Positions 36,337 through 43,895 of a DNA stretch of 63,688 bases are shown here, piece after piece. The DNA is taken from NCBI RefSeq assembly GCF_003946885.1, contig NZ_RWKQ01000007.1, positions 1 through 63,688 of the forward strand, given 5' to 3'. The notes beneath the pieces were generated by a model. It worked only from the letters and a program-made list of their open reading frames with translations. It searched no databases and was not told the DNA's origin. The translations under genes and the position numbers were made by a program. The stretch is from Specibacter cremeus (GTDB lineage: Bacteria; Actinomycetota; Actinomycetes; Actinomycetales; Micrococcaceae). Position 1 is the first letter of the stretch, and each line of letters opens with the position of its first letter.

Positions 36337-37209
36337 ATGAGAGCTGCCGATCCTCCCGTCCGCGTGCGTGACCTCACCAAGGCCTACGGGGCCCTCACGG
36401 CCCTGGGAGGCGTGAGCTTCGACATCGAGGAGGGCGAGACGTTCGGGTTGCTGGGTCCCAACGGCGCCGGCAAGAGCACCACGATCGAGATCCTCGAGGG
36501 CTACCGGAACCGGTCCGGCGGGTCGGCCAGCGTGCTCGGCGTCGACCCGCAGCACGGCGGCACCGGCTGGAAGGCGCAGCTGGGCATCGTGCTGCAGTCC
36601 GGCGGGGAGAGCGCGAATGTGAGCGTGGTGGAGCAGCTCACGCACTTCGCCCGCTACTACCCGAACCCGCGCAACGTGGGGGAGGTCATCGAGGCCGTGG
36701 GCCTGGCCGACAAGGCCAGGACCCGCATCGGCAAGCTCTCCGGGGGGCAGCGCCGCCGCGTGGACGTGGCCCTGGGCATCATCGGCCGCCCCCGGCTGCT
36801 GTTCCTGGACGAGCCGACGACGGGCTTCGACCCCGAGGCGCGGCGCCAGTTCTGGGGCCTGATCGACCGGCTCAAGGGCGAGGGCACCACCATCCTGCTC
36901 ACCACCCACTATCTGGACGAGGCCGCCGCACTGTCCGACCGGGTCGGCGTCATCGTCGACGGACGCCTCGTGGACATCGGGCCGGTCGATGAGATCGGCG
37001 GGGATGCGGCGAAGGTGCCGCTCGTGCGGTGGCGGGAGGCCGGCGTCGTCCGTTCGGAACGCACAAGGGCACCGGCGGCGCTGGCCGCGCGGCTCTTTGC
37101 CGAGGCCGGCGGCGAGGTGGACGGGCTGGAGATCACCCGGCCCAGCCTGGAGGACATCTACCTGGACTTGGTCGGGGCCCGCGACGATGGGTCCGGGGAG
37201 GCGGCATGA
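36337..37209 (+). CDS. ABC-2 type exporter, ATPase subunit
   Basis: 290 residues. Walker A GLLGPNGAGKSTTIEIL, Q-loop GIVLQSGGESANVSV, signature KLSGGQRRRVDVALGI, Walker B LLFLDEPTTGFDPEAR and switch TTHYLDEAAALSDRV are present. DrrA/CcmA-like C-terminus. With the following permease (ATGA overlap) it makes a drug- or peptide-type exporter. Its genes converge on the peptide locus, ending 4 bases from the M50 protease gene, so a role in export or self-protection is possible but unproven. Confidence 0.92.
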   Translation: MRAADPPVRVRDLTKAYGALTALGGVSFDIEEGETFGLLGPNGAGKSTTIEILEGYRNRSGGSASVLGVDPQHGGTGWKAQLGIVLQSGGESANVSVVEQLTHFARYYPNPRNVGEVIEAVGLADKARTRIGKLSGGQRRRVDVALGIIGRPRLLFLDEPTTGFDPEARRQFWGLIDRLKGEGTTILLTTHYLDEAAALSDRVGVIVDGRLVDIGPVDEIGGDAAKVPLVRWREAGVVRSERTRAPAALAARLFAEAGGEVDGLEITRPSLEDIYLDLVGARDDGSGEAA

Positions 37210-38018
37210 GAACCCTCGACCTCGGGTGGTCGCGGATCAGGTACGAGCTCAAGACCTACTTCCGGCAGGGCGATTCGGTGTTCTTCACGTTCCTGTTCCC
37301 CATCCTCATGCTGTCGGTGTTCGCGGTGGCGTTCAGCACCAGCGGCAAGATCGGTGCCGCGCCGGACGGCAGCGGCGGCATCAGCTTCGCCGCTTTCTAC
37401 GTCCCCGGCATGGTGGCCGCCGGCATGCTGCTCAGCGGGGTGCAGAACCTCGGCGTGGACATCGCCGGCGAAAAGGGCGACGGCACGCTCAAGCGCCTGG
37501 GCGGCACGCCGCTGCCCGTGTTCTCCTACTTCATGGGCAAGATCGGCATGGTGCTGGTCTCCGCCATCCTGCAGGTGGCCCTGCTGCTGCTCGTGGCCAG
37601 GTTCGGGTTCGACGTGGCGCTGCCCACCGAACCGGGCAAGTGGTTCACGTTTGCCTGGATCTTCCTGTTCGGCGTCGTGACCAGCTGCGTGCTGGGCATC
37701 GCCTTGTCCGCACTGCCGCGCACCGGCAAGAGCGCCACGGCCGTCGTGATCCCGATCGTGCTGTTGCTGCAGTTCATCTCCGGCGTGTACCTGAACTTCA
37801 ACCAGCTGCCGGCGTGGTTGCAGAACATTGCCAGCGTCTTCCCGCTCAAGTGGATGGCGCAGGGCATGCGGAGCGTGTTCCTGCCGGCCTCCTTCGAGAC
37901 GGCCGAACGCGGCGGCGCATGGAACCTGGGCCTCGTGGCGCTGGTCATGGGCCTGTGGCTCGTGGTGGGACTCATCTTGTGCCGGTTGACGTTCCGCTGG
38001 ATCCGGAAGGACAGCTGA
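37206..38018 (+). CDS. ABC-2 type exporter, permease subunit
   Basis: 270 residues with six predicted membrane segments (about 27-46, 58-80, 105-130, 140-165, 175-195, 235-258). It has the ABC-2 pattern AAGMLLSGVQNLGVDIAGEKGDGTLKRLGGTPLP and the ISGVYLNFNQLPAWLQNIASVFPLKW stretch. Start ATG 37206 overlaps the ATPase stop. Partner of the preceding ATPase; substrate unknown. Confidence 0.9.
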   Translation: MRTLDLGWSRIRYELKTYFRQGDSVFFTFLFPILMLSVFAVAFSTSGKIGAAPDGSGGISFAAFYVPGMVAAGMLLSGVQNLGVDIAGEKGDGTLKRLGGTPLPVFSYFMGKIGMVLVSAILQVALLLLVARFGFDVALPTEPGKWFTFAWIFLFGVVTSCVLGIALSALPRTGKSATAVVIPIVLLLQFISGVYLNFNQLPAWLQNIASVFPLKWMAQGMRSVFLPASFETAERGGAWNLGLVALVMGLWLVVGLILCRLTFRWIRKDS

Positions 38019-38021
38019 GCT

Positions 38022-39368
38022 CTACCGGACCAGGTGGCGTGCCGAGTTCGGGTCGATCCGGCGCTGCCGGGCCGGGCGCCGGCGGGCGGCCGTCCACCGG
38101 CGCCCGGCCTTGACGACCGCGGCCAGCAGGCGCTGGAGGATCACCACGAGCCCGAGCAGCGGCAGCACCAGCATGACGACCGACAGCGCGGAATACAGCG
38201 CATCGAGGGGGTGGCCCTGGGCGAAGGCCGGGCCAATCCCCTGGGCGTGCATGGCCACGGCCGCCGCCGTCTGCTGGACGACCAGCGGCAGGCTCCACAG
38301 CAGCCAGCCGAGCATCAGGATCAGTGCGGGAATGACAATGAGGACCCAGGCCGTGACGATCCTGCGGGCCGCCGGACGCAGTTCGGCGACGCGCGGATCG
38401 GGGGCCCGTCCGGGCACCAGACTGCGCAGGACCGGGCCGACGCGCGCGAACAGGTCGGGCACGCCGGCCAGGTCCGCCAACACGAAATAGCCGTCCAGGC
38501 GGATCGTCGGGGGAAGCTGTTGGAGCATCTGGAACTGCATGGCCAGCACCAGCAGCAGCAGGATCCCCTGCCCCGTGAGCAGGTACCCGATCCCGGCGAC
38601 CAGCACGCACCAGACGTTGAAGTAGAGGCCGCCGAGATCCGTGCGGAGCCGGCCGGCCCTCGGGAGCCGGTAGGAGTCCGTCACGTTCGTGAAGAACGCG
38701 GGAAAGACCAGGTACAGGCCGAACCCGATGACCCCGGGCTTGGCGCCGCCATAGTGGCAGGCCGTGGCGTGCCCCAGCTCGTGGATCAGTGCGCCGGCCA
38801 CGAGCAGGACGAACAGCTCCAGCAGCAGGACGGGGGTGACCAGGATTTGTTGCAGCGCGCCCAGGAAATTGGCGGTGGCGAAGATTGCGATGTCCAGCGC
38901 CACGAGCCCGGCCAGGGCCACGATGACCACGGGGGTGAAGTACAGCGGCGACAACCAGCGGGCCAACCGCTGCACCAGCGGGGCCGGCACGAGCGTGCCG
39001 CGCAGCCGCAGGGCCAGCAGCGGATCGGCGGTCGGGGGCTTTTCCATCGACGGCTGATCCAGCGACCGGTCCTCAAGGAGCCCGTTGGGTGCCAGCTTCG
39101 TCTCGATGAGCTGTTCCAGGCCCGCCACGTCAAGCTCGCGGCCATAGGCGTCACTGACCAGCCGGGCCACGTCGGCGGGCGCGCGGTCCGCCGCCACCGT
39201 GGACAGGACCAGGTTGAGCAGGGTCGACAACTGGATGACTTGGCCGTCCGGGCGTTGGACCAGGTAGGTCTGCTGGACGAGTCCCGAACCGGACACCGGT
39301 CCGAGGAGCTGGACGCCCGGGGCAAGGGACCATTGCGGTGTGCGGATGTCGCTGGACTCTGTGGTCAT
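38022..39368 (-). CDS. Membrane M50-type metalloprotease with PqqD/RRE-like N-terminal domain
   Basis: 448 residues. Residues 10-100 fit the PqqD-like fold of RiPP recognition elements: QQTYLVQRPDGQVIQLS, then a helical VARLVSDAYG part and LEQLIETKLAPNGLL. Membrane helices follow, with zinc motif ALIHELGHATACHYGG (His196, Glu197, His200). The distal zinc ligand is in RLDGYFVLADLAG (Asp290). This is the architecture of YydH-like or peptide-zinc-metalloprotease proteins in peptide clusters. It would bind a leader peptide and cleave the peptide at or in the membrane. It lies 60 bases behind peptide gene 1 on the same strand, after a hairpin. The RRE assignment is by pattern and needs a profile search. 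Confidence 0.8.
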   Translation of the reverse strand: MTTESSDIRTPQWSLAPGVQLLGPVSGSGLVQQTYLVQRPDGQVIQLSTLLNLVLSTVAADRAPADVARLVSDAYGRELDVAGLEQLIETKLAPNGLLEDRSLDQPSMEKPPTADPLLALRLRGTLVPAPLVQRLARWLSPLYFTPVVIVALAGLVALDIAIFATANFLGALQQILVTPVLLLELFVLLVAGALIHELGHATACHYGGAKPGVIGFGLYLVFPAFFTNVTDSYRLPRAGRLRTDLGGLYFNVWCVLVAGIGYLLTGQGILLLLVLAMQFQMLQQLPPTIRLDGYFVLADLAGVPDLFARVGPVLRSLVPGRAPDPRVAELRPAARRIVTAWVLIVIPALILMLGWLLWSLPLVVQQTAAAVAMHAQGIGPAFAQGHPLDALYSALSVVMLVLPLLGLVVILQRLLAAVVKAGRRWTAARRRPARQRRIDPNSARHLVR

Positions 39369-39386
39369 GGCCCCTCGATCGTGTGT

Positions 39387-39419
39387 GGGCCCGGCGCCTG
39401 GAAGCCAGACGCCGGGCCC
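39387..39419 (-). terminator. Hairpin between peptide gene 1 and the M50 gene
   Basis: GGGCCCGGCG (39387-39396) pairs with CGCCGGGCCC (39410-39419), loop 13, no T-run. It may reduce read-through so that peptide is made in excess over protease, or stabilise the short mRNA. Confidence 0.6.
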
Positions 39420-39428
39420 GGGTGGTCG

Positions 39429-39632
39429 TCAGCTGTTGCTCTGAACGACGTTGACTGATTGCAATGCTGCGCTGTTCGCCGAGGACAGGATCGTGCCGGC
39501 ATTGACCGCGAGCGACGAGTTCGACGCCCAGACGGCGGCCCAGTTGTGCCCGAAGTTGAAGAACAGGGTCTCCTTCGTGGGAAGCAGTTCCACGCTCTCG
39601 CCTTCGAGTTCGGTGATGGTCATCATTTCCAT
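39429..39632 (-). CDS. Small secreted-peptide precursor 1
   Basis: 67 residues from ATG 39632, which follows AAGGAGGTG. It starts MEMMTITELEGESVELLPTK, then the motif LLPTKETLFFNF and an Asn/Ala/Ser-rich, aliphatic C-terminal half (SSLAVNAGTILSSANSAALQ, then SVNVVQ). It is almost identical to precursor 2 (6 substitutions in 67). Leader-plus-core layout, neighbouring RRE-protease and a strong RBS suggest a RiPP-type or proteolytically released peptide. Cys is absent, so lanthionine chemistry is excluded. I know of no characterised product with this core. Confidence 0.8.
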   Translation of the reverse strand: MEMMTITELEGESVELLPTKETLFFNFGHNWAAVWASNSSLAVNAGTILSSANSAALQSVNVVQSNS

Positions 39633-39701
39633 ATCATTCACCTCCTTCGAAATCCTGGGGAGTTCCGTGAACGGATCTCCACTTGGGGGTCTTTCAGGAA
39701 C

Positions 39702-39746
39702 AGTCAATCCGAGCCCCCGTTGCTGCCGCGTTACAGCCGCGTTGCC
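39702..39746 (-). promoter_or_regulatory. Three 11-bp direct repeats and TTGACT before peptide gene 1 (SARP-type operator)
   Basis: On the minus strand: GGCAACGCGGC, TGTAACGCGGC, AGCAACGGGGG in tandem (39746-39714), six bases, then TTGACT (39707-39702). The 11-bp period puts the repeats on one helix face, as SARP regulators require. An additional GGCAAC lies 10 bases upstream. The same arrangement precedes peptide gene 2 at the same distance from its start. Confidence 0.75.
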
Positions 39747-39773
39747 GTGGGTTGCCGATCCGTCCCGGGACGC

Positions 39774-39828
39774 AAAACGGCCCCTGCGGGGGAGGGAACA
39801 CCACTGGTTCGCCTGCCCGCAGGGGCCG
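39774..39828 (-). terminator. Rho-independent terminator after the secreted CxxC protein gene
   Basis: CGGCCCCTGCGGG (39778-39790) and CCCGCAGGGGCCG (39816-39828) form a perfect 13-bp stem, followed on the minus strand by TTTTGCG. It separates the secreted protein transcript from the operator of peptide gene 1. Confidence 0.75.
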
Positions 39829-39851
39829 GGTCGGTCCGTCTCAGCGGGCGC

Positions 39852-40616
39852 TCACTGGCCCACCTGCACGTCGACGTTCCGCTGTACGGCGGCCCCGCCC
39901 ACGGCGGAGACGATGATCTTCGAAAGCCGTGCGGCCGTGTCGTCGACCAGCGCCTTGGCCTCGGGCGCGGCCATCCGGCGCTGCGAGTTCTTGGCCGGCT
40001 GCTGCAGGCGGTCGGCGAGTTCGGCCTGGATTTCGCTGATGAGGGCCTTGGCCTGGCTGGACAGCTCCCGGTACGACCCCCCGGCGATGACGAATTGGAT
40101 GGCCGCCGCGGACGTGTTGCAGTCGACACAGCCGGAGTTCAGGGCCAGCGCGCGATTGTTCACGGTCAACGGCTGGGCGCGGCGCGCCACCACGAGTTGG
40201 ACCGAAACGGCCGACGACGTGCAGCCGGTGCAGCTGGACCAGGCCGCCGCGGTGTTGTCACCGGTGGCCGCGGTGCCGGTGAAGTACACCACTTGGAAGG
40301 TTGTCGACGTCCCGCTGCAGCCATCGCAATTGCTTGTGGCCACCGACGACGCCACCGCCTTCGCCGCCGACGAGGACGTCCGTGCGGTCGCGACGGCGTT
40401 GTCGCCGACCGTCGGATTGGCCGTGGACGGGATGGCCGAGGAGGCCGCGTCCAGGCTGGAGATGTACCGCGGGGCGTAGTGGCCCCAGCGGATCTGCCCT
40501 GAGGCCTGGGACACGGGGGTCTGGGACACGGCGGGCGTGGAGCCGGTGCCCGTCACAAGGGTGGCCGCGACGAGCACGGGCACAAAGAACAAACTGGCAA
40601 GAAACCTGCGGTGCAT
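39852..40616 (-). CDS. Secreted protein with three C-x2-C-x7-Q repeats
   Basis: 254 residues. A signal peptide (FLASLFFVPVLVAATLVTG, cleavage near 25-30) leads to three repeats. They are CDGC with Gln108 (Cys97/100), CTGC with Gln140 (Cys129/132) and CVDC with Gln174 (Cys163/166), each followed by an aliphatic beta-like strand. A helical C-terminal part (183-254) closes the protein. Repeat 3 (NRALALNSGCVDCNTSAAAI, Gln174) aligns without gaps to the core of the small peptides, with 9 of 23 positions identical to precursor 1. It may be a scaffold, nucleator, decoy or carrier for the peptides. The CxxC pairs could form disulfides outside the cell. RBS GAGG precedes the ATG. Confidence 0.75.
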   Translation of the reverse strand: MHRRFLASLFFVPVLVAATLVTGTGSTPAVSQTPVSQASGQIRWGHYAPRYISSLDAASSAIPSTANPTVGDNAVATARTSSSAAKAVASSVATSNCDGCSGTSTTFQVVYFTGTAATGDNTAAAWSSCTGCTSSAVSVQLVVARRAQPLTVNNRALALNSGCVDCNTSAAAIQFVIAGGSYRELSSQAKALISEIQAELADRLQQPAKNSQRRMAAPEAKALVDDTAARLSKIIVSAVGGAAVQRNVDVQVGQ

Positions 40617-40687
40617 TGCTAACCTCGTTTCTACTTCGATTACTTGGTGTGGATCAAAGCGGAGGAGACCGAGCGGAGACTAGCAAA

Positions 40688-41437
40688 CTATCGGAGGACC
40701 TGCCTCGGGGCGGAGCGGATGACGGGTGGAAGGTGCTCCAGGAGCAGCTCCCGGAATTTCGAGGACGGCTCGGCGCCCAGTTCCTGGTCCAGGTAGCTGC
40801 GGAAGTTCTCGTATTCGTGGACCGCGGAGGCGTAGTTGTCGTCGGCGAGGTAGGCCCGGAGCATGATCAGCCGGGCGCTTTCGCGGAAGGGTTCGATGGA
40901 GGCGGCAACCTTGGCGGCGTCCAGCGCCAGCCCGGTCTGTCCCGTCGCCAGGTAGCGCCTGGCGAGTGCCTCGAGGGCGAACAATCGTTGGAGCTGCAGC
41001 CGTTCCTGTTCGAAGAGGACCCAGTCCTCATACCAGCCCGGCAACAGGTCGGCGGACCGGAGAACGTCGATGGCCGCGCCGCCCGGCGGCACCGCACCCC
41101 CGTCGTCCCCAATGTCGGAGATCAGCCCCCGGACACGATCGAGATCCACGGTCACATGCTCGCCGAGCGTCAACGGGTCCATGTCGCCGGACAGCAGGGA
41201 CGGAAGTTCGTGGGAGATCCGGAACACGCTTGAGCGAAGGCTGCCGGCGGCCTGGCTTTCCGAACTGCCGGGCCAGAGCAGGTCCGCGAGGTAATGACGG
41301 GACCGGGCACCGCGCAGGGCCAAGACGCTGATGACGCGTTGTTGGCGTGGCCCGACGTCGATGGTTTCACCATGGTGTCTGAGCCTCCAGCAGCCCAGCA
41401 GGTTCAAATCCCACCCTGAATTGGAGGTCGTTCGCAC
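40688..41437 (-). CDS. SARP-family transcriptional activator (OmpR-type DNA binding + BTAD)
   Basis: About 249 residues from GTG 41437, preceded by GGGGGAGGGGCAA; a GTG at 41464 would add nine residues. The N-terminal winged helix contains LNLLGCWRLRHHGETIDVGP and RQQRVISVLALRGARSRHYL. The BTAD domain follows with EQERLQLQRLFALEALARRY and ESARLIMLRAYLADDNYASA, then HEYENFRSYLDQELGAEPS. SARPs activate antibiotic and peptide clusters by binding 11-bp-spaced direct repeats and recruiting RNA polymerase. Exactly such repeats lie before peptide genes 1 and 2. It is 71 bases upstream of the secreted protein gene, probably co-transcribed. Confidence 0.88.
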   Translation of the reverse strand: MRTTSNSGWDLNLLGCWRLRHHGETIDVGPRQQRVISVLALRGARSRHYLADLLWPGSSESQAAGSLRSSVFRISHELPSLLSGDMDPLTLGEHVTVDLDRVRGLISDIGDDGGAVPPGGAAIDVLRSADLLPGWYEDWVLFEQERLQLQRLFALEALARRYLATGQTGLALDAAKVAASIEPFRESARLIMLRAYLADDNYASAVHEYENFRSYLDQELGAEPSSKFRELLLEHLPPVIRSAPRQVLR

Positions 41438-41569
41438 TTGCCCCTCCCCCGGCGCCCCGGCCACAAGATAATTCGGACCTGTGAGACCGCCCCAAGCCCC
41501 TTGTTAACTTCTAAGTAAGGCCTCAATGCCCTGCCCTGTCAAGAGTCGTCGGGCACAATGACGGTGCTG

Positions 41570-41857
41570 TTACACATTGTCCGGCGTCGGCACCGGCGGC
41601 TCCGCGCTTGAGAACCGTGAAAGCCAGCTCCGAACCGCCTGCAGGACCTCCTCGGGGTTCGTGACGACGGATACGGCCGGCTCGGATTCTTCCGGCCCGC
41701 CAAACGTCAGCCGCGCGCGGAATCCGGGCTCCTGGTCGGGTTCCGACCACACGCGGATGACCATGGCACCCACGTCGGCGTAGCCACCACCCAGGTCATC
41801 CATATCAACCATTTCCACGCTTTCCCAAATATCCGACTTCGAACGGGCAATCTTCAA
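41570..41857 (-). CDS. Small acidic protein of unknown function in the peptide locus
   Basis: Up to 95 residues. Sequence features: DMDDLGGGYADVGAMVIRVW, an Asp/Glu-rich middle and VTNPEEVLQAVRSWLSRF near the C-terminus, which looks like an alpha/beta fold. The start is unclear. TTG 41857 directly abuts a GGAGG, whereas GTG or ATG codons 13-15 residues later have better spacing from GGGAAAGC. It is encoded upstream of the SARP gene on the same strand. I do not recognise it. Confidence 0.55.
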   Translation of the reverse strand: MKIARSKSDIWESVEMVDMDDLGGGYADVGAMVIRVWSEPDQEPGFRARLTFGGPEESEPAVSVVTNPEEVLQAVRSWLSRFSSAEPPVPTPDNV

Positions 41858-41970
41858 CCTCCGGGCAACCCTACCAGCCGGTAACGATATGAGTCTAAGT
41901 CATTGCAATAGCCTCCATTATGTCCTATTCGATGAATTTATGTGAGACCAATCCACGGTCCGGAGGGCCC

Positions 41971-42015
41971 TGCAACGCCGCTGTAACGCGGCTGCAACGG
42001 CGGCCGGGATTGACT
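41971..42015 (+). promoter_or_regulatory. Three tandem 11-bp repeats and TTGACT before peptide gene 2 (SARP-type operator)
   Basis: TGCAACGCCGC (41971-41981), TGTAACGCGGC (41982-41992) and TGCAACGGCGG (41993-42003) are perfectly in 11-bp register, followed after six bases by TTGACT (42010-42015). The ATG is 84 bases from the last repeat, against 82 for peptide gene 1. No clear -10 is visible, in keeping with activator-dependent promoters. Confidence 0.8.
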
Positions 42016-42086
42016 GTTCGAGGAAGACCCAAACAAGGAGATCCGATCGCGGAGCTCCACCAGGAAATCCCAAGGAGGTGAATGAA

Positions 42087-42290
42087 ATGGAAATGATGAC
42101 CATCACCGAACTCGAAGGTGAGAGCGTGGAACTGCTTCCCACGAAGGAGACCCTGTTCTTCAACTTCGGGCACAACTGGGCCGCCGTCTACGCGTCGAAC
42201 TCGTCGCTCGCGGTCAACGCCGCCACGATCCTGTCGCAGGCGAACAGCGCAGCGCTGCAGGAGGTCAATGTCGTCCAAGCCAACCACTAG
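42087..42290 (+). CDS. Small secreted-peptide precursor 2
   Basis: 67 residues; ATG 42087 follows AAGGAGGTGAATGA. It differs from precursor 1 at only six places (Tyr for Trp, Ala for Gly, and four near the C-terminus). It has the same ELLPTKETLFFNF motif and NSSLAVNAATILSQANSAAL core. About 115 bases upstream are also duplicated, in inverted orientation relative to precursor 1. First gene of a two-peptide transcript diverging from the SARP side of the locus. Confidence 0.82.
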   Translation: MEMMTITELEGESVELLPTKETLFFNFGHNWAAVYASNSSLAVNAATILSQANSAALQEVNVVQANH

Positions 42291-42301
42291 GCATTCGCCC
42301 C

Positions 42302-42330
42302 GTCCGGCGCCCGCCTTCCGGGCGCCGGAC
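42302..42330 (+). terminator. Perfect 12-bp hairpin between peptide genes 2 and 3
   Basis: GTCCGGCGCCCG and CGGGCGCCGGAC with a 5-base loop, no T-run. Likely an attenuator or processing/stability element controlling the ratio of peptides 2 and 3. Confidence 0.65.
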
Positions 42331-42349
42331 TCACAGAAAGGTGAGGAGC

Positions 42350-42565
42350 ATGACTTCATCATCGCTCCTGCGCTCCGACGAACTCGATGCCGAGTTCGCG
42401 CAGCTCCTGCCCAGGCGCGAAACATTGTTCCTGGACTTCAACATCAATGTGGCCCCCGTGATTGGTGTCAACCTGGCGCTGGCCATCAACGCCGCGACCA
42501 TTAACTCCGTCGCCAACGCGGGTGCGTGGCAGAACCTTGCTTCGGTGGCAGTCATCCACCACTAG
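42350..42565 (+). CDS. Small secreted-peptide precursor 3 (divergent paralogue)
   Basis: 71 residues; ATG 42350 follows GAAAGGTGAGGAGC. It keeps the leader motif as QLLPRRETLFLDF and the core as NLALAINAATINSVANAGAW, then Gln61. Thr50, Ser53 and Gln61 hold the spacing of the C-x2-C-x7-Q repeats of the secreted protein, as Thr47, Ser50 and Gln58 do in precursors 1 and 2. About one third identical to the other peptides overall, so it may be the second member of a two-component product. Confidence 0.8.
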   Translation: MTSSSLLRSDELDAEFAQLLPRRETLFLDFNINVAPVIGVNLALAINAATINSVANAGAWQNLASVAVIHH

Positions 42566-42584
42566 CGCCCGGGGCCGGCCCGTC

Positions 42585-42619
42585 CGGCGGGCATGTCGTC
42601 GACGACGGCATGCCCGCCG
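42585..42619 (+). terminator. Terminator-like hairpin after peptide gene 3
   Basis: CGGCGGGCATG (42585-42595) pairs with CATGCCCGCCG (42609-42619). It ends the peptide transcript before the methyltransferase gene. Confidence 0.55.
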
Positions 42620-42659
42620 TTCGGCGTTCAGGCGGGATACACCCCGATACCCTTGATGC

Positions 42660-43895
42660 ATGGCCGCCGACGCAATCGCACCCCTCCTGACCACCGAAGG
42701 CTGGGAGCTGCTCGCTTCGCTGGGCCCCTACCGGCAATCCGATGCGCTCAAGCTCAATGAGGCGCTGCGCAGGGCCGGCCACCCGGCCGATCTGGTGGCC
42801 GCCGTGCTCACCCAGTCGCGATTGCGCGCCAAGGCGGAGGCCAAGTTCGGAGAATTCGCCGCCCGCATGCTGTTCACCCCCGCCGGGCTGGAGCAGGCGA
42901 CGCGCCTGAGCGTCGCCGCGCTGCACGCGCAACGATTCACGACGGCGGGGCTCGGCTCCGTCGCCGACCTCGGCTGCGGCATCGGCGCCGACTCGCTGGC
43001 CATGGCCGGCCTCGACCTGGATGTGCTGGCGGTCGACATGGACGAGACGACGGCCGCGTGCGCCACCGTCAACCTCATGCCGTTCCCGCACGCGCGGGTC
43101 CGATGCGCGCGGGCGGAGGACGTGGACCTGGCCGGCATCGACGGCGTCTGGCTGGACCCGGCCCGGCGCACCACGTCCACCTCCGGCACCACGCGCCTGT
43201 TCGACCCCGAGGCGTTCTCCCCGCCGTTGTCCTTCGCCGAGCGGTTGGCCGATCGGGGACTGGCCGTGGGGGTCAAGATGGGGCCGGGCATCCCGCACGA
43301 ATCCGTGCCCGCGACGGCGGAGGCGCAATGGGTCTCCGTCAACGGCGACGTCGTCGAGGCGGGACTGTACTTCAACGCCCTCAAGCGACCCGGGGTACGG
43401 CGCGCTGCACTGGTGTTGGGCCCGCACGGCCCAGCCGAGTTGACCAGCGCCGAGGCGTACGATCCCGGCGCCCAGGACCCGCCCGTCGGGCCCATCGCCG
43501 GGTACCTGTACGAGCCGGACGGGGCCGTGATCCGCGCCGGGCTCGTCGCCGACCTGGCGCGGAGCCTGGGCGGCCACCTCATCGACGGGCACATCGCCTA
43601 CATCTGTGCCGGGCAACCCGTGGACACGCCGTTCGCCCGCGCCTACCGGGTCCTCGACGTCCGGCCGTTCAACGTCAAGGCGCTCAAGAGCTGGGTCAAG
43701 GCGCAGCGGATAGGCGTCCTGGACATCAAGAAGCGCGGCATGGCCGTCACGCCCGAGGAGTTGCGCCGCCAACTGCTCACGGGGTCCGGCAAGGGCCCGA
43801 ACAAGGCGACGTTGGTGCTGACGCGTGTGGGCGACGAACGGGTGGCCGTCGTCGTCGAACCGCACGGTCCGATCGACGGACCGCGCACGCTATAG
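42660..43895 (+). CDS. Class I SAM methyltransferase with THUMP-like domain
   Basis: 411 residues. SAM motif I VADLGCGIGADSLAMAGLDL is followed by acidic LAVDMDETTA, then GVWLDPARRT. The C-terminal THUMP-like domain has VLDVRPFNVKALKSWVKAQR and IGVLDIKKRGMAVTPEELRR. The family is widespread in Micrococcales near groESL and most likely acts on RNA. It is therefore probably not a tailoring enzyme for the neighbouring peptides. Start ATG 42660 without a strong RBS. Confidence 0.85.
   Translation: MAADAIAPLLTTEGWELLASLGPYRQSDALKLNEALRRAGHPADLVAAVLTQSRLRAKAEAKFGEFAARMLFTPAGLEQATRLSVAALHAQRFTTAGLGSVADLGCGIGADSLAMAGLDLDVLAVDMDETTAACATVNLMPFPHARVRCARAEDVDLAGIDGVWLDPARRTTSTSGTTRLFDPEAFSPPLSFAERLADRGLAVGVKMGPGIPHESVPATAEAQWVSVNGDVVEAGLYFNALKRPGVRRAALVLGPHGPAELTSAEAYDPGAQDPPVGPIAGYLYEPDGAVIRAGLVADLARSLGGHLIDGHIAYICAGQPVDTPFARAYRVLDVRPFNVKALKSWVKAQRIGVLDIKKRGMAVTPEELRRQLLTGSGKGPNKATLVLTRVGDERVAVVVEPHGPIDGPRTL

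Follow-up and report, generated by a model that had tools for sequence, protein, structure and literature searches.

What does a locus produce when it joins short peptides, bearing a leader like that of ribosomally synthesised and post-translationally modified peptides (RiPPs), to a membrane protease, and holds no recognised enzyme that would modify them? The question is raised by a gene set of Specibacter cremeus (Micrococcaceae) on contig NZ_RWKQ01000007.1 of assembly GCF_003946885.1, of which positions 1 to 63,688, the whole stretch of DNA analysed, are called the window here. Its seven genes encode three peptides, an M50 membrane protease, a secreted protein with CxxC motifs (the CxxC protein), a regulator of the Streptomyces antibiotic regulatory protein (SARP) type and a small acidic protein. 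All lie where an earlier note, made from the sequence alone, had placed them (Table 1), and to judge by their sequences they form one cassette. We propose that the cassette releases its peptides under the guidance of their leader and assembles them into an extracellular cross-beta fibre, a reading that we consider modestly probable. The locus had been thought undescribed, and we found no published account of it, of these peptides or of the CxxC protein in the openly accessible literature, to which subscription journals and most preprints do not belong.

The proposal starts from the peptide cores. They had been noted as rich in Asn and Ala, and the composition is as described; what that description missed is that the pattern alternates strictly and is common to the CxxC protein. 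Its two-residue rhythm runs N-x-A-x-A-x-N, a turn, and then S-x-A-x-A-x-A-x-Q-x-V-x-V-x-Q, with mostly small residues, Asn, Gln or Val at the odd positions of 27-41 and 47-61 and varying residues in between. Over columns 35-61 the column entropy is 0.88 in phase versus 2.63 out of phase (permutation p=0.0001, columns treated as independent). As read from this pattern, the core is a strand-turn-strand that buries one face and is laid out like a curli-type beta-arch. Curli strands are described as carrying N/Q-x-psi-x-psi-x-N/Q kernels (PMC10192328), and N/S/Q-x-psi-x-psi-x-N/Q kernels, a pattern chosen after the alignment was seen, occur at least twice in 92 of the 99 cores examined, at a mean of 2.05 per core versus 0.78 in shuffled sequences.

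The CxxC protein appears to be built of the same unit. Its predicted model (predicted local distance difference test, pLDDT, >90 for most of residues 51-254) has eight consecutive strands of 8-12 residues with CxxC pairs in the turns, followed by helices. The third unit, N154...N160-CxxC-T168...Q174, gives a gapless hhalign alignment of 34 columns with the core (E 7.6e-4), while the M50 profile, used as a control, gives E 0.35. With the core alone the score is 23.7, a value reached by none of 200 column shuffles (highest 20.2), and the reversed core scores 15.2. The CxxC match at one related locus, L067, is real, and that sequence was left out of alignments A2 and A4.

In front of the core stands a leader of the form ELx6LLPx[RK]E. 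L14 and P15 are invariant and R17 is present in at least 90% of sequences in alignment A6, which holds 52 of the 99 peptides, and 15 columns are invariant in the first nine sequences. Peptides 1 and 2 differ at nine codons synonymously and at six nonsynonymously, and when peptides 2 and 3 are set against relatives, third-position changes are in excess in ten comparisons; the small open reading frames (ORFs) are therefore supported, at the level of codon change, as translated genes. The leader is kept where the core is exchanged. We collected 18 further protease loci (L130-L147, E <1e-90) by hand from the protease match lists of the two genome sets described below, and in 17 of them a protein with the same leader adjoins the protease (weakest at L143, E 3e-3). 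The exception, L142, belongs to genome G460, which has its peptides and CxxC gene on one contig (L084, contig C4) and this protease on another (C2). At 14 of these sibling loci the precursors are 212-285 aa long and hold two arch units joined by a linker, and the same leader precedes Gly-rich cores at L094 (on a plasmid) and L141, and Arg-rich ones at L143. Short precursors with a conserved leader and a variable core next to a processing enzyme, together with a RiPP recognition element (RRE, PqqD-like) domain on that enzyme at the family level, are marks of RiPP systems; a leader that stays constant while cores are swapped next to an RRE-protease is RiPP logic.

The siblings also connect the CxxC protein to the protease. 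A CxxC-profile domain sits at the C-terminus of 14 of the 18 sibling proteases (3e-20 to 4e-30), preceded by a hydrophobic segment in the two sequences inspected by eye, and a MinD match was obtained with none of the 18. The fusion links the CxxC protein to the protease step and hints that its place of action is where the cores come out; the fusion also makes assembly into a fibre somewhat more likely.

Several of these relatives deserve mention in their own right. L130-L140 and L145-L147 encode the RRE-M50-CxxC fusions (ORFs of 741-1021 aa) beside two-unit precursors with low-complexity linkers and without a SARP box, and L147 has a separate CxxC gene besides its fusion protease. At L094:2509-4667, on a Streptomyces changanensis plasmid, and at L141:6643-7911, the leader is of the ELLPERxxLS type, the Gly-rich cores have Cys in the tail, and the adjoining RRE-M50 protease has no CxxC match. 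L144:10336-12556 has a variant peptide, IELPEREMLALVNV, with a Cys-containing core behind the same leader and a large BTAD-type regulator nearby, possibly an independent recruitment of SARP-type control.

The protease shows the HExxH motif and distal DG motif among membrane helices that characterise M50/site-2 proteases, and H196, E197, H200, D292 and G293 are invariant in all 32 aligned sequences. The Pfam M50 model does not match the window protease and matches two relatives below threshold (0.006 and 0.013). Its closest profile is the daptide protease NF041824 of NCBIfam (2.1e-29), which covers most of the protein at 102.8 bits, below the 300-bit cut-off, and scores 80.7-105.5 bits in four relatives. 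The YydH profile NF058609 gives 52.9 bits, also below its cut-off (225 bits); the earlier suggestion of a YydH-type nearest relative was dropped, the daptide profile scoring higher.

The same note had described the protease as RRE-like, which holds for the family and not for the window protein taken singly. Among 33 N-terminal domains, the RRE models matched are ApyI NF050149 (15 of 33, best 4.5e-5), PqqD TIGR03859 (6 of 33) and Pfam PqqD (3 of 33), and the window domain scanned alone against the RRE/PqqD models matches none. The predicted model begins strand-strand-strand-(strand)-helix-helix-helix before the long helices, and Foldseek lists the RiPP maturase SkfB (6efn, prob 0.75, E 1.4), the listing giving no aligned range. 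An N-terminal RRE-like domain is thus supported at family level by profiles and by the predicted fold. In solved structures the M50 profile finds only MJ0392 (3b4r, E 0.49), over the HExxH stretch, and the peptides return a single chance row. The plasmid search gave five records with the protease, two of them from Streptomyces, and no match with the peptide. A C-terminal ParA/MinD-like ATPase domain is carried by the cassette protease at only five of 34 M50 loci (L001, L002, L003, L064 and L066); the window protein does not have it.

Peptides and protease travel together. We searched 295 genomes of the same family and 396 of the phylum, each count including the window's own genome. The peptide profile matches in 19 of the former and 10 of the latter, a conservation well beyond chance, and the protease profile in 41 and 44. 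Same-family protease scores fall into a top class (E <1e-190, 19 genomes; the threshold was chosen after the score gap was seen) and a sibling class (E 1e-145 to 1e-157) found in 17 genomes that lack a match to the first peptide profile; five top-class genomes carry a sibling protease as well, and five further genomes have weak matches only. The top class comprises exactly the 19 genomes that hold the peptides, so the co-occurrence that the earlier note had named as its own refuting test was borne out.

The usual order in peptide loci is acidic - SARP - CxxC - peptide - M50 - peptides, with variations. Among 37 loci (the window, L001-L003, L060-L090, L093 and L094), a SARP is encoded at 22, a separate CxxC protein at 23 and the acidic protein at 16. 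One to five peptides occur per locus, and the type of peptide 3 is present, by eye, at 23 of the 25 close loci (L001-L003, L060-L081) and missing from L070 and L076. In the window, the acidic protein, SARP, CxxC protein, peptide 1 and protease follow one another on the minus strand from right to left, and peptides 2 and 3 lie on the plus strand. Peptides 1 and 2, promoter regions included, form an inverted duplication, with 213-nt arms 91% complementary and 87-nt upstream arms 82%.

Table 1. Features of the cassette in the window (positions count from the first letter of the 63,688-nucleotide stretch)
Feature	Position	Strand	Basis or remark
Whole inserted cassette	38019..42657 (ends approximate)	.	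Spans from ABC permease stop to THUMP-methyltransferase start
RRE-fused M50/site-2-type membrane protease, 448 aa	38022..39368	-	HELGH 196-200, RLDG 290-293
Putative N-terminal RRE/PqqD-like domain of protease, about residues 1-110	39039..39368	-	Family-level profile matches, predicted strand/helix order
Precursor peptide 1, 67 aa	39429..39632	-	91% identity to peptide 2; peptide profile 6e-34
SARP-type box of peptide 1	39715..39743	-	Three 7-mers, 11-nt period (CAACG/TAACG), score 20/21
Secreted CxxC protein, 254 aa	39852..40616	-	Signal peptide by eye; predicted strand-turn-strand units, CxxC in turns, then helices
Small SARP regulator with BTAD domain	40688..41464	-	PF03704 2.2e-14
Small acidic protein	41570..41857	-	Relatives in 15 other loci
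SARP-type box of peptide 2	41970..41998	+	CTGCAAC/CTGTAAC/CTGCAAC, 11-nt period, score 20/21
Precursor peptide 2, 67 aa	42087..42290	+	AAGGAGG upstream
Precursor peptide 3, 71 aa	42350..42565	+	Second peptide type, INVAPVIGVNLALAINAAT core; 47% identity match to peptide 2

SARP control of the locus, as first suspected, is supported on both sides: the BTAD domain of the regulator was confirmed, and triple boxes precede peptides at 17 of the 22 loci with a SARP. Direct 7-mer repeats at 11-nt spacing are the rule for SARP binding sites, and such repeats, ahead of the presumed target genes of a BTAD regulator, are what is seen here. The scores of the boxes of peptides 1 and 2 were reached by none of 60 dinucleotide shuffles. 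Peptide 3 has none (best score 17/21), as expected for the second gene of one transcript. A score of at least 19/21 is found in 23 of 99 peptide upstream regions versus none of 99 shuffled once each by dinucleotide, and among periods of 8-15 the best is 11, the next being 9 with 6 of 99. Where the fetched stretch holds no SARP, boxes precede peptides at two of 13 loci (L074 and L076), and none of 14 sibling precursors has one. The usual word is (A/G)TAACG, with other words at L003 and L063, and a stricter test (an A-A-C core in at least two copies) is passed by 14 of the 17 boxed SARP loci.

Two observations stand beside this. At L070 and L076 a single peptide stands alone, the fetched stretch lacking a protease, and the genome has a complete cassette at another place; the L076 peptide keeps its box (20/21), which suggests control and processing in trans. 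The acidic protein found no family match within the cut-off and may be a partner of the SARP.

The mechanism we propose, in which the cleavage site, export, stacking into fibres and the role of the CxxC protein are what we infer from the computed linkage, boxes, conserved leader with exchanged cores, alternation, CxxC-peptide profile match and protease-CxxC fusion, has five steps. The SARP would bind the triple (G/A)TAACG-type repeats and switch on the lead peptide promoters, and the leader of each peptide would dock on the RRE domain of the membrane protease; both steps draw on sequence statistics. The protease would then cut off the leader and free the core outward, without any tailoring enzyme, a step modelled on what is known of the daptide, epipeptide and TMcin proteases. 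The last two steps draw on pattern, profile and domain fusion: each core, some 35 residues long, would form one beta-arch with Asn, Ala, Ser, Gln and Val inward, like a curli rung, and the cores may stack on one another and on the CxxC protein, itself predicted to be a series of arches of the same type. The CxxC protein, a secreted protein in the window and part of the protease in the siblings, would template, cap or anchor the cross-beta fibre at the site of release. In its most specific form, that a RiPP-style leader and an RRE-site-2 protease keep amyloid subunits silent and release them rung by rung onto a secreted or protease-built CxxC template, the proposal comes close to an even call and is put forward tentatively.

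Several results weigh against a fibre. SARPs usually drive antibiotic clusters. The hhalign probability for core versus CxxC is only 25%. Foldseek with the CxxC model gives no significant match in the PDB (best E 0.27), with weak rows for FapC (E 0.50) and the CsgA fibril (E 2.1) at TM-scores of 0.08-0.16, and none in a viral structure library (best E 0.017); no solved relative of the CxxC protein was found. None of 52 peptides matches the curlin model, and membership of the curli family by profile was accordingly rejected. A separate CxxC gene is present at just 22 of the 34 M50 loci in a single-sequence search. Core strand 1 has mainly aliphatic residues out of phase, a make-up that would be suitable for a hairpin inserted into a membrane as well. 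An ABC-2 (ATP-binding cassette) ATPase/permease pair in the fetched stretch of the window locus and of five loci of genus g7 may act as an exporter, a role against which counts the occurrence of the pair without the cassette in the window's genus.

Since a strictly alternating pattern is common to the core and the CxxC protein, the odds of a structural fibre are no lower than those of a small-molecule-like RiPP. Among known fibres the cassette resembles curli (CsgA/CsgB) in its kernels in beta-arches (PMC10192328) and in the same-fold partner proposed here, as CsgB is to CsgA; it differs in having, in the window, one Asn/Ala-based arch per chain and no signal peptide seen on the peptides, and in its leader and RRE-site-2 protease partner. 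Chaplins and rodlins of Streptomyces are likewise small secreted actinobacterial amyloid proteins in long and short forms (PMC7766987), but the chaplin domain has GN motifs and Cys, and the passages of that source on chaplins describe no protease partner.

The alternative that survives best is a multi-peptide bacteriocin, in which amphipathic beta-hairpin cores, set free without modification by the RRE-M50 protease, oligomerise into pores in the membranes of competitors and the CxxC protein serves as immunity factor, escort or receptor. SARP control and one to five diversified peptides per locus would fit it, as would the alternation of small polar and aliphatic residues in core strand 1, and a protease-fused CxxC domain would suit an escort too. 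There is precedent in the TMcins (TmcA, with the site-2 protease TmcP), where an S2P-clan protease removes the leader, the product is made at the membrane, is reported to form beta assemblies in the shape of beta-barrel pores and to need a membrane escort, and a partner protein works with the protease (PMC13252029); the M50 enzyme EpeP is likewise reported to be sufficient for production of an antimicrobial epipeptide (PMC10885120). The TMcin precursor, however, has a transmembrane helix, a disulfide and its own ABC exporter, and the passages of that source on TMcins mention neither an RRE nor a SARP (PMC13252029). Against pores, strand 2 bears polar or charged residues out of phase in distant lineages (SVAYANAEQDVTIDQ), a face that does not look membrane-facing, the conserved face of the core matches a unit of the secreted CxxC protein, sibling precursors hold two arch units in each chain of 212-285 aa, and neighbour clustering shows no immunity-like gene common across genera. 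We regard pores as unlikely, while holding them to be the chief rival to a fibre.

Less probable still, and in our view doubtful, is a conventional RiPP, whose cores would receive their modification from enzymes that lie in other parts of the genome or have escaped recognition, the protease only trimming the leader as in daptides. The daptide mpa cluster has an RRE-fused site-2 protease, MpaP (PMC10036551), the daptide enzyme is the closest protease profile, and daptide clusters also encode several short precursors whose leader is rich in Leu and Glu and closes with a Pro motif, ELExMEAP (PMC10036551), which ELx..LLP resembles. One locus, L148:9373-10393, is itself a daptide-like cluster, with four ELExLEAP-type peptides ending in Thr and a distant RRE-M50 protease alongside. 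The window cassette, however, has no oxidative decarboxylase pair, aminotransferase or methyltransferase, and none is common to cassettes across genera; its peptides end in Ser, His and His and lack the invariant C-terminal Thr, with which some distant relatives do end; its cores contain no Cys; and it has an alternating Asn/Ala beta-arch core, a CxxC partner and SARP control. Daptide membership was rejected on protease score, C-terminal Thr and tailoring genes. Epipeptides (YydF/EpeX with EpeP/YydH) share an M50 processing protease (PMC10885120), with the weaker profile match given above, and differ in that the cassette has no radical S-adenosylmethionine gene, has other precursors and has its RRE fused to the protease.

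What lowers the standing of any modified RiPP is that no tailoring gene is common to the loci across genera. The absence of such an enzyme from the cassette had been remarked on before, and clustering of neighbouring genes extends it to the cassette loci of other genera. Conservation, moreover, lies along an alternating face of the core and not at one reactive site. Beyond genus g7, the only non-cassette families are three host families common to g7 and L065, ABC ATPases (9 loci), the ABC-2 permease (the window and five g7 loci), f17 (4 loci) and f24 (3 loci); a shared extra enzyme or exporter was rejected on this result. The small gene family f24 lies just upstream of the peptides at distant loci L085, L086 and L088, of one taxonomic family. 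That the peptides are signalling or developmental cues sensed back to the SARP is improbable, for although a SARP with a small acidic protein near it occurs in many loci and L074 and L076 keep a box with no SARP in the fetched stretch, clustering finds no sensor or receptor family common across genera, and the core, besides being long and patterned, has its signature in common with a larger domain that is either secreted or tethered to the protease.

The surroundings of the cassette bear on its history. The earlier note had put groES at its left boundary; the left neighbour is instead the ABC ATPase/permease pair (36364-38018). Its claim of an insertion fared better. In the genus, counting the window's own genome, all 23 genomes have the THUMP gene and 20 of the 23 have the ABC permease. 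In six of the 19 relatives having both, the two are directly adjacent and the site is empty; in the other 13 they lie 4.0-4.9 kb apart. In blastn alignments the left flank extends to 38016-38020 in each of the six empty-site relatives, and the right flank begins at 42648-42721 in the four in which it aligned. An ABC uptake gene set (binding protein, permeases, ATPase) fills the site, by eye, in all five stretches fetched from the 13 spaced relatives (L150-L154), and the cassette profiles run over these five sites and the six empty ones gave a single peptide match at chance level (E 0.079). In relatives G096 and G170 the site is empty and the cassette is located elsewhere in the genome. Because relatives with an empty site, with ABC genes in it and with the cassette elsewhere all exist, the cassette is a unit inserted at a variable chromosomal site.

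Under either reading, fibre or pore, the ELx6LLPx[RK]E leader motif and the SARP box would be usable for genome mining. Should the cores prove to be pores, they would be a new class of unmodified, protease-released bacteriocins. The literature consulted describes RRE-site-2 proteases in daptides and S2P/M50 proteases in TMcins and epipeptides. Should fibres be shown, the system would be categorically new. It would then offer single-rung building blocks for protein fibres, and a compact test system (one SARP, one protease, one to five peptides and one partner) for studying how bacteria prevent amyloid aggregation inside the cell. It would also add a further logic of functional amyloids beside signal-peptide secretion, as in chaplins, and secretion through the CsgG pore, as in curli. 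If the proposal is true, it would join RiPP leader logic and functional amyloids, fields usually kept separate, and would explain the purpose of a large family of RRE-M50 proteases that come without tailoring enzymes.

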